DNA from: Halorussus limi
GTDB taxonomy: Archaea > Halobacteriota > Halobacteria > Halobacteriales > Haladaptataceae
DNA length: 64,000 nt
Direction of reading: 5' to 3'
NCBI RefSeq assembly: GCF_023238205.1
Contig: NZ_CP096659.1
Coordinates: forward strand, 992,001-1,056,000
The notes below the pieces were generated by a model. That model did no database searches and was not told the DNA's origin. It was given only the letters and a program-made list of their open reading frames with translations. Made by a program: the position numbers and the translations under genes. Shown here in pieces: positions 34,490-38,427 of the stretch; the stretch's first letter is position 1; each line of letters starts with the position of its first letter.

Positions 34490-35809
34490 GTGTCCGACCG
34501 CGCTCGCTGGCCCCCGTCGCTCGCGTCCGACCGACTCCCGCCGTCGCCGGTCCTGAAGTACTACTGCTATCAGGCGACCGTCTCGTTCGGCTTCTTCTCG
34601 CCAATCTTCACGCTGTTCCTGCTCGACCGCGGACTCGACTACACGGCCATCGCGTCGCTGAGCGTGCTGTACGCCGTGCTGACCGTCGGCGGCGAGATTC
34701 CGACGGGCTACGTCGGCGACCGACTCGGCAGGCGGGCCAGCCTCCTGCTGAGTTCGGCGTTCATGACGCTCTCCATCCTCGGGTTCGCGCTCGTCCGGTC
34801 GTACGTCGGTCTCGCGGTCCTCTACGTCCTCTGGACGCTCTCGCTGGTCTTCCGGTCGGGTACCGGCGACGCGTGGCTATACGACGCGCTCGCCGCCGGT
34901 CGCGCGAGCGAAGCGAGCGGAACGTCGGAGTCGCGCTCGGACGGCGGACTCGACGCCGACCGCTTCGCTCACGTCCGGGGTCGAGGTCAGTCGGTCAACA
35001 AGGCCGTGACCGTCGTCACCATGCTCGCGGGCGGCGTCCTCTACAGCGTCCGGCCGACGCTTCCCTTCGTCGCCTCCGCTGTCCTCAACGGGGCGGGCGT
35101 GGTGGTCCTACTCACGCTCCCGAAGAATCGCCAGTATCTCGACGGCGACTCGGACGCAGGCGGAGACGGCGCCGGCGGAGCCACCGACGACGAGCGTCTC
35201 GGGACCCTCGCCGCTCTCGCCGTCCTCCGCGAGCAGTTGACCCGGCCGCGACTCCGGTGGTTCGTCGCGTACGCCGCGCTCTTCTTCGGCGTGGTCGCGG
35301 CGGCCGACACCTACGTCCAGCCAATCAGCACCGAGACGCTCGGCGTCCCGGTCGCCTCGATGGGCCTGCTGTACGCCGCCTTCGCGGGCGTCTCGGCCGT
35401 GGCGAGTTACTACGCCGGGGCGGTGCAGGACCGCCTCGGCGTCCGCGGAGCGGTCCTCGCGATTCCGCTCGTCCTCGGCGTCGCGCTGGTCGCGCCCCTG
35501 CTGTGGCCGCTGCTGGCGCTCCCCACGTTCTTCGTCATGAAGGGGTCGCGCTCGCTCCTGTATCCCATCGTCACCCAACGCGTCAACGACGAGGTGGCGT
35601 CGGTCGGGCGCGCGACCGTCCTGAGCGCGGCGTCGATGGCGTACGCGCTGGTCAAACTCCCGCTGTACCTCCTCGGCGGAGCGGTCGCCGACGCGACCTC
35701 CGCGCTGGTCGCGTTCGGCGTCCTCGGCGGCGTCTTCCTCGCCGGAATCGCGGCGGTCCGGACGTTCGCGTCGCCGGTCGGCGAGAGCGAGGCCGGGGAC
35801 GGGAAGTGA
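34490..35809 (+). CDS. Major facilitator superfamily transporter
   Basis: 439 residues from GTG 34490 (AGCGTTTTTG about 30-38 bases upstream acts as TATA). About twelve membrane helices with the MFS loop 2-3 motif GYVGDRLGRR (about 80-90) and the central loop after helix 6, which is an acidic/Gly insert. YYCYQATVSFGFFSPIFTLFLLDRGL is characteristic of haloarchaeal MFS proteins. The substrate is unknown; drug or metabolite export is typical. Confidence 0.85.
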   Translation: MSDRARWPPSLASDRLPPSPVLKYYCYQATVSFGFFSPIFTLFLLDRGLDYTAIASLSVLYAVLTVGGEIPTGYVGDRLGRRASLLLSSAFMTLSILGFALVRSYVGLAVLYVLWTLSLVFRSGTGDAWLYDALAAGRASEASGTSESRSDGGLDADRFAHVRGRGQSVNKAVTVVTMLAGGVLYSVRPTLPFVASAVLNGAGVVVLLTLPKNRQYLDGDSDAGGDGAGGATDDERLGTLAALAVLREQLTRPRLRWFVAYAALFFGVVAAADTYVQPISTETLGVPVASMGLLYAAFAGVSAVASYYAGAVQDRLGVRGAVLAIPLVLGVALVAPLLWPLLALPTFFVMKGSRSLLYPIVTQRVNDEVASVGRATVLSAASMAYALVKLPLYLLGGAVADATSALVAFGVLGGVFLAGIAAVRTFASPVGESEAGDGK

Positions 35810-37227: not shown

Positions 37228-37650
37228 TTAGTTTTCGCCGGTCGTCGCTTCTCCGCTCGTCGTCTCTCCGCTCGTCACGTTCCTGTCCGTCACCGAGTCG
37301 TCGCTCGAATCCCGCTCCTCGGCCCACTCCAACACCGGTTCGAGTCGGGTCGCTAACTCCCGGCCGTCGTCGGTCAGTCCGTACTCGACGCGAGGCGGAA
37401 TCTCGTCGTACTGGGTCCGGGTCAGGAGGTTTCCGTCGGCGAGTTCGTCGAGTCGCGCCGACAGCGTGGAGGTGCTGGCGTCGGGCAGCAACTCCTCAAA
37501 CTCGCCGAACCGGGTCGGTTCGGTCGCGGCCACGACGCAGAGGACCTGCATCGCGTACTTCCGGCTCAGGAGGTCCATCACGCCGCCGAGCGGGCAGTAA
37601 CAGGTCGTGTCGTCGTCCGCGGGGTCTGGCGGTGTGGCGTCGTTAGTCAT
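37228..37650 (-). CDS. HxlR-family winged-helix regulator
   Basis: 140 residues. Start DDDTTCYCPLGGVMDLLSRKYA (Cys-Cys region C17/C19, then the first HxlR helix) and the DNA-reading helix in DASTSTLSARLDELADGNL, with a wing in RTQYDEIPPRVEYGLT. The C-terminal 25 residues are a Ser/Thr/Gly tail. HxlR regulators respond to aldehydes, quinones, thiol stress or metals. It is divergent from the MerB-like gene and a perfect inverted repeat lies directly upstream of its ATG. Confidence 0.88.
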   Translation of the reverse strand: MTNDATPPDPADDDTTCYCPLGGVMDLLSRKYAMQVLCVVAATEPTRFGEFEELLPDASTSTLSARLDELADGNLLTRTQYDEIPPRVEYGLTDDGRELATRLEPVLEWAEERDSSDDSVTDRNVTSGETTSGEATTGEN

Positions 37651-37652
37651 GG

Positions 37653-37668
37653 CTTCGAGTCCTCGAAG
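37653..37668. promoter_or_regulatory. Candidate HxlR operator
   Basis: Perfect inverted repeat CTTCGAG-TC-CTCGAAG two bases upstream of the HxlR start codon (ATG 37650). A degenerate copy CTTCGGACTCGAC follows at 37680-37692, next to the TATA of the divergent gene. The layout fits a repressor controlling both genes. Confidence 0.6.
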
Positions 37669-37694
37669 TTAGTCCAATACTTCGGACTCGACAG

Positions 37695-37700
37695 TATAAG
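37695..37700 (+). promoter_or_regulatory. TATA box for the MerB-like gene
   Basis: TATAAG 26-31 bases before ATG 37726, selecting this ATG over an upstream TTG at 37705. Confidence 0.6.
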
Positions 37701-37725
37701 CACTTTGGGATGCAAAGTCAAGTCG

Positions 37726-38427
37726 ATGTGTACCCCAGACGCCGCGAACGGCGAATCCGACGGTGCATCGAATGACGAACAGAGTGACAAACGGAGCGAC
37801 CGAGCGACCGACGAGCGAAGCGACCGAACGAGCGACGAACGGAGTGGCGAGGCGAGCGACGCCGGAGCGACCGCCGTTGATTCGGTCGAAGAGCGACGGC
37901 TTCCGCCGGAAATCGGCGCGAACCTCCGGGCGCTGTTCGATACGGAGGACCGCCCCGAGACTGTCGGCGCGTGGGTCGAGGCGGTGGCCGGGGCCTTCGG
38001 CGACGAGTGGCCGCCCGCCGTCGCGGACCTCTGTCACGACGACGAGGGACTCCACCGCGCCGAAACGGAGGGCGAGACCTACCGGTTCGTCTGCGTCCTC
38101 GACGCCGTCATGCTCCCGTTTCTCACCGACGGGTCGGTGACGGTGCGCTCGGAGGACCCGGAGACGGGCGAGACGGTCGCGTCGCGCGTCTCGCGGACGG
38201 GCATCGAGACCGACCCCGAGAACGCCGTGCTGTCGTTCGGGGTCGCCGAGACCGAGGGGAACGACGCTCCGACGCCGGAGGCGACGTACGGCGCGCTCTG
38301 TCCGTACGTCCACGCGTTCCCCGACGAGGACGCCTACGAGCGGTGGGACGAGCGGACCGACGCGCCGACGACCGCCCTGCCGCTCTCGGAGGGGTTCGGG
38401 CTGGCGCGGGCGCTGGTCCGGGCCTGA
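37726..38427 (+). CDS. Organomercurial lyase (MerB)-like protein with low-complexity N-terminus
   Basis: 233 residues. From about residue 60 on it follows the MerB fold: an HTH-like helical segment, then C123-x-x-D126 (FVCVLDAVMLPFL) and C192 (LCPYVHAFP), which align with the catalytic Cys-Asp-Cys trio of MerB; EGFGLARALV near the end is also MerB-like. MerB cleaves carbon-mercury bonds. The first 50 residues are a repetitive Asp/Ser/Arg/Glu stretch encoded by GAGCGA-type repeats, unusual for the family. The gene is divergent from HxlR; no mercuric reductase (merA) is nearby. Other organometal or thiol chemistry is possible. Confidence 0.78.
   Translation: MCTPDAANGESDGASNDEQSDKRSDRATDERSDRTSDERSGEASDAGATAVDSVEERRLPPEIGANLRALFDTEDRPETVGAWVEAVAGAFGDEWPPAVADLCHDDEGLHRAETEGETYRFVCVLDAVMLPFLTDGSVTVRSEDPETGETVASRVSRTGIETDPENAVLSFGVAETEGNDAPTPEATYGALCPYVHAFPDEDAYERWDERTDAPTTALPLSEGFGLARALVRA

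Follow-up and report, generated by a model that had tools for sequence, protein, structure and literature searches.

In Halorussus limi, a gene for an HxlR-family regulator and a gene for a protein of the MerB superfamily are arranged divergently with 75 bp between them, within the 64,000-nt stretch of the 4.62-Mb genome that was analysed (G000:C1:992001-1056000; hereafter the window). Judged by their sequences, the two genes have been conserved as a pair, together with their predicted operator, and the same regulator subfamily, together with a similar putative operator layout, is found before merA in most merA-bearing haloarchaea. The reading proposed here, to which a probability of roughly 0.7 is assigned, is that the locus represents a two-gene detoxification unit, in which a dedicated HxlR metalloregulator with three cysteines would repress a MerB-like carbon-mercury lyase.

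The MerB-like protein and its relation to merA

Both gene assignments of the initial annotation, a regulator of the HxlR and not of the MerR/ArsR type and a divergently oriented MerB-like gene, were confirmed by Pfam (Table 1). The regulator reached 65.4 bits on PF01638 (gathering cut-off 20.8) and the MerB-like protein 73.3 bits on PF03243 (cut-off 27), the latter being the only PF03243 protein above the cut-off in its own genome. The residues C123, D126 and C192 in MerB spacing and the Val-His-Ala-Phe segment, which had also been pointed out, are present as described (CPYVHAF). In a PDB profile search, for which a 28-sequence profile of haloarchaeal MerB-like relatives served as query, solved MerB structures were matched with a best E value of 1.1e-9, and the trio (233-aa numbering) aligned to C96, D99 and C159 of R831b MerB. 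Loss of the trio in orthologues, on which the annotation had let its reading depend, was looked for; the equivalents are kept in 76, 75 and 76 of 77 haloarchaeal MerB-like ORFs, a set which includes the identical copies L037/L038 and L035/L036. Still, the window protein is not a canonical MerB, because the C117 site is occupied by a proline and the NCBIfam equivalog cut-offs are failed (NF009710, 49.9 vs 193; NF033555, 40.6 vs 200). The cysteine demanded there of canonical MerB (PMC8261052) is replaced by P145, and proline is found at this site in 76/77 of the haloarchaeal ORFs, with a gap in the remaining one. Plasmid relatives bear the label 'merB: organomercurial lyase' in public records. 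Two AlphaFold models of the window protein, obtained from 3-sequence alignments, had mean pLDDT values of 49 and 46 and, being below 50, were both discarded as evidence; a PDB search and a scan of genome contigs with the single protein, as well as scans of viral contigs, yielded nothing useful.

Table 1. Features of the HxlR-MerB locus and of a membrane ORF in the window (window positions)
Feature	Position	Strand	Remarks
Membrane ORF with LCC motif, 83 aa	34132-34383	-	present in 17/18 genus genomes; no Pfam or NCBIfam match
HxlR-family regulator, 140 aa	37228..37650	-	PF01638; conserved C17-x-C19 and C38
Divergent promoter/operator region, 75 bp	37651..37725	.	conserved in HxlR-MerB and HxlR-merA pairs from distant haloarchaea
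Second inverted repeat, GCTTCG-N6-CGAAGT, at HxlR start	37652..37669	.	autoregulation inferred
Upstream operator box ACTTCGGACTCGACAGT	37679..37695	+	degenerate dyad copy, continuing into the TATA-like element; by comparison
Putative TATA-like element, MerB promoter	37692..37700	+	by sequence and conserved position
Dyad ACTTTG-N5-CAAAGT	37702..37718	+	between TATA-like element and MerB start
MerB-superfamily (PF03243) protein, 233 aa from ATG	37726..38427	+	C123, D126, C192; P145 at C117 site; extra conserved C103

The N-terminal part of the MerB-like protein (~37750-37880) derives from an imperfect GAGCGACGAACGGA-type repeat, and its alignment to relatives is poor. In the family, a CxC located no more than 15 residues from a Met that precedes the core occurs in 29/75 MerB-like ORFs as opposed to 6/1322 other genes, the set of 75 omitting the degenerate L105:41-763 and the truncated L126:6376-6723, both of which do not contain the CxxD motif. 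CxC or CxCC follows directly after the start in the MerB-like proteins of L109, L110, L117, L121, L122, L089, L090 and others. The window protein has no N-terminal CxC and features C2 alone in that region. It might be guessed that the N-terminal CxC of the family serves as a built-in Hg(II) acceptor.

The statement of the initial annotation that no merA is present holds for the window, in which no match to TIGR02053 (MerA) was found, but not for the genome, as a merA above the NCBIfam cut-off is located on another replicon (G000:C4:101373-102809; TIGR02053, 522 bits vs 454). The encoded MerA carries GGTCVNVGC and a C-terminal CC. On this 168.6-kb contig C4, the gene adjoins two small CC-motif membrane ORFs and an ArsR-like gene (all named by eye), and not an HxlR gene; further neighbours encode another MerA-like oxidoreductase, which does not reach the cut-off, and, as read by eye, a metal-ATPase-like protein. 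The absence of a mercury transporter close to the MerB-like gene, also claimed previously, was upheld. The LCC-motif ORF (Table 1) was rejected as a candidate, being a genus core gene untied to MerB whose likeness to an ORF near the own merA extends over no more than 18 residues (E 0.51). Besides, a transporter-like protein at 34490-35809 (+) is 46% identical to one that contig C4 encodes ~6 kb beyond merA.

In a survey of 391 haloarchaeal genomes, PF03243 was present in 57 and MerA, at an E value of 1e-130 or better, in 53 (52 over the NCBIfam cut-off). Both occurred together in 6 genomes, which does not exceed chance (odds ratio 0.72, Fisher p 0.67); haloarchaeal MerB-like genes are therefore distributed independently of merA. 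Among 354 genomes sampled from the phylum, MerB-like matches were confined to 8 genomes of the order to which the window belongs.

The HxlR subfamily and its operator

The window HxlR bears all features by which a merA/MerB-linked subfamily was defined here, namely the profile, CxC plus a third Cys and the divergent operator. On the subfamily profile, of which it is itself a member, it scored 189 bits (E 7.3e-56), as compared with 38-59 for the other three of the 4 HxlR genes in its genome. The profile search detected 125 HxlR places in 112 of the 391 haloarchaeal genomes; 5 of these rows have an internal stop in the read (G262, G353, G279, G228 and G369), and the counts are non-independent as far as the genomes are related. 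At a distance of up to 1.5 kb, an HxlR of the subfamily was found at 52/57 merA places (one of the 57, G378, lies below the NCBIfam cut-off) and at 38/66 MerB-like places, an extra row for the second segment of the G297 gene being omitted. In all 52 merA cases the HxlR is divergent, and the two profile matches are separated by 99-115 bp. The remaining 35 HxlR places were accompanied by a small CC-motif protein (12), merA (2; L181 and L185, both beyond the merA list), MerB remnants (2), a small Cys-rich protein (2) or none of these (17, mostly weaker HxlR matches, with two strong ones in L180 and L182). The labels 'small Cys-rich' and CopZ-like were read by eye, and the DoxX label was taken from Pfam. 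The MerB remnants comprise 60 and 80 aa (L174:5997-6179 and L203:3357-3599). In L086, L088, L092, L100 and L103, the MerB-like gene is followed by a gene for a DoxX_2 protein and then by a convergent HxlR gene. MerB-like genes which do not have an HxlR (L042, L043, L090, L093, L095, L096, L108, L111 and others) are located near a cluster-2 HTH gene, HTH_10 in one example, and an ABC ATPase/permease pair; this may be a second control type.

In view of the position of the subfamily at merA, the presence of an HxlR was not taken to indicate a non-metal function. This position likewise bears on the explanation that the HxlR-MerB unit, like characterised HxlR proteins, responds to electrophiles or thiol stress (aldehydes, quinones, disulphides) and that a thiol adduct, not a metal, is what the MerB-like protein acts on. 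Such a role would agree with the HxlR relatives with solved structures, which include HxlR, YodB and QsrR, and with the DoxX_2 protein between MerB and HxlR in the five loci, but in view of the 52/57 merA genes preceded by the same subfamily and of the preserved MerB trio it is quite improbable.

The initial annotation had passed over the conserved operator in the 75-bp gap. On the MerB side, the gap contains ACTTYGGACTYGACAGTATAA, followed by ACTTYG-N5-CRAAGT. The only exact match to this dyad pattern in the 4.62-Mb genome is the one at the locus, and in L125 and L127 the upstream operator copy itself matches the dyad. The predicted operator (box or dyad) was detected at 39/42 HxlR-linked MerB genes, 0/33 unlinked ones and 1/944 background genes of the same loci, the association having a p value of 3.5e-18. 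A 40-base operator pattern, present in the window with 0 mismatches while no occurrence is expected by chance, was found with up to 3 mismatches at 37 places in 36/391 haloarchaeal genomes; a reversed-pattern control gave zero among the matches listed. MerB or its HxlR adjoins 27 of the 37 places, and each of the other 10 has an HxlR of this subfamily as neighbour; merA lies opposite in 2 of these cases and a MerB remnant in 1. A similar layout was seen in the 17 merA promoters that were read. With ORFs as called, the HxlR-MerB gap measures 74-77 bp in 15/32 listed pairs, most other lengths reflecting uncorrected start calls.

It is hardly credible that the two genes are neighbours by chance or represent a relic in decay. 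The distribution is indeed patchy, the pair being present at this locus in 6/18 genus genomes, and MerB remnants stand beside HxlR in L174 and L203. Nevertheless, the pairing is conserved in many flanking contexts, operator and trio are conserved, and the operator association contradicts such an origin; moreover, chance adjacency should be rare, as the whole genome possesses only 4 HxlR genes. In the MerB tree, HxlR pairing requires 4 changes and spans the whole tree, which suggests that the pairing is old.

Sensor cysteines, substrate and proposed mechanism

The regulators differ in their cysteines according to the partner gene. MerB-linked HxlRs have C38 in 42/42 cases and C17 and C19 in 39/42, the other three calls beginning downstream, whereas merA-linked HxlRs have Ser at position 38 in 17/17; their third Cys is placed earlier, as C-x5-C-x-C, in the eight sequences inspected. 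C38 also occurs in 9/12 CC-linked HxlR rows, among them the two with ArsM, and CxC is absent from the trimmed row in 4/44 MerB-linked and 3/10 CC-linked HxlRs. In the HxlR tree, which was computed from 110 columns and in which many forks are unresolved, a branch with an SH-aLRT of 98 groups the window HxlR with all 17 merA-linked HxlRs. As the merA-linked rows are close kin in this tree, the exchange of the cysteine may have been a single event.

In L173:5043-6143 and L176:4876-6135, the CC-motif domain is fused to ArsM (337 and 335 bits vs a cut-off of 263), and each fusion gene is divergently paired with an HxlR gene of this subfamily, the operator being the same. Accordingly, the inducer of the subfamily may not be mercury. 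The MerB-like protein could instead be a lyase for another organometal(loid), e.g., organoarsenicals, organotin or organolead, and this HxlR branch would then sense trivalent or methylated arsenic in place of mercury. This is in line with the CC protein at 12/35 HxlR places that have neither merA nor MerB, its fusion to ArsM in two genomes, C38 being shared by MerB-linked and CC-linked regulators as opposed to Ser in the merA-linked ones, and the independence of MerB-like genes from merA. Besides, NCBIfam names a MerB-like organometallic lyase, SaoL, which is also listed in the available part of PMC13188914. Still, this alternative is unlikely. In the tree, the window HxlR is grouped with the merA-linked ones (98), the trio for C-Hg protonolysis is completely kept, and SaoL is absent among the matches of the window protein. 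Furthermore, ArsI, a known C-As lyase, has a fold different from that of MerB.

For the carbon-mercury lyase under HxlR control, the following mechanism is proposed. An HxlR dimer would bind the inverted repeats, both those that overlap the TATA box and the start of the MerB-like gene and those at the start of the HxlR gene itself, thereby repressing both genes. Release of the regulator would follow when C17, C19 and C38 bind a soft metal species (RHg+ or Hg(II), possibly also trivalent arsenic). By analogy to MerB chemistry, C123 and C192 would hold R-Hg and D126 would protonate the carbon, giving RH and thiol-bound Hg(II), which might then be handed on either to thiols of the cell or to the MerA of the other replicon. 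The substrate is the weakest step of this mechanism; other organometal(loid) substrates are conceivable on account of the ArsM-fused partners and the lacking co-occurrence with merA. The initial annotation had left the choice between an organomercurial lyase under unusual control and a relative with another carbon-metal or thiol chemistry. The first option is the better supported, since the same HxlR subfamily and a similar operator layout precede merA, while its control is unusual in relation to MerR/ArsR systems but is the common arrangement in haloarchaea.

A more far-reaching suggestion, which is somewhat less likely than not, is that haloarchaea employ a hitherto undescribed HxlR metalloregulator as mer switch in place of MerR/ArsR, with separate branches sensing inorganic Hg and organometal(loid)s, and that the MerB-like enzyme acts as a stand-alone detoxifier independent of merA, in many species with an N-terminal CxC(C) tail that could accept the released Hg(II). 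If this split into branches holds, the different placement of the cysteines (C-x5-C-x-C at merA; C-x-C plus C38 at MerB-like and ArsM genes) would imply separate sensing. According to the available part of PMC8261052 (2021), methylmercury demethylation had not yet been described in archaea; the dedicated regulator and conserved operator make it directly testable in culturable haloarchaea. Provided that the proposed reading is true, a new regulator class would be added to mercury resistance, and the locus would be relevant to the action of MerB where MerA is absent, which the accessible portion of the same study raises as a question for about half of the merB genomes.

Comparison with known systems

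In the accessible text of PMC8261052, MerB without merA is already known from bacteria, and 11 archaeal MerB genomes are counted among 1959, as compared with 57/391 haloarchaeal genomes with PF03243 here. The available portion of PMC3600143 contains haloarchaeal merA and merB annotations and no regulator of the HxlR kind. A literature search, which largely covered sources outside subscription journals, revealed no report linking HxlR to MerB, mercuric reductase or arsenite, and for HxlR, mercury and archaea together it returned a single paper, on bacterial SXT/R391 elements.

With MerB (PF03243; R831b, PDB 1s6l/3f0p), the window protein shares the core domain, the equivalents of C96, D99 and C159 and the V-H-x-F segment. 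It differs by Pro at the C117 site, the extra C103, sub-equivalog scores and the absence of an adjoining merA or MerR. In the '117alt' MerB variants described in the accessible part of Christakis et al. (2021; PMC8261052), C96, D99 and C159 are likewise kept and another residue is found at position 117; these variants are bacterial and, so far as that part extends, do not feature such a regulator, whereas an HxlR with a predicted operator is present here. SaoL (NF040728), the name of which relates to organometals beyond the classical mer system (PMC13188914, available in part), is MerB-related like the window protein, which nevertheless does not match it; among the MerB-like proteins, the mer-linked one of L035 alone did so, and weakly.

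As in mer operons with a MerR/ArsR-type regulator, a soft-metal detoxification gene is located beside a cysteine-bearing regulator. The differences concern the HxlR winged helix, the stand-alone MerB-like gene and the missing merA in the cluster. Cysteine-based sensing is established for several HxlR-family sensors. The PF01638 fold of the window HxlR is common to HxlR, YodB, YybR and QsrR, from which its subfamily is distinguished by CxC plus C38 and by the partner genes, i.e., merA, MerB-like genes and CC/ArsM. Taken together, a 117alt-type MerB-like protein under a predicted HxlR metalloregulator, the subfamily of which is a common neighbour of merA in haloarchaea, appears from these comparisons to form a real, functionally organised unit.
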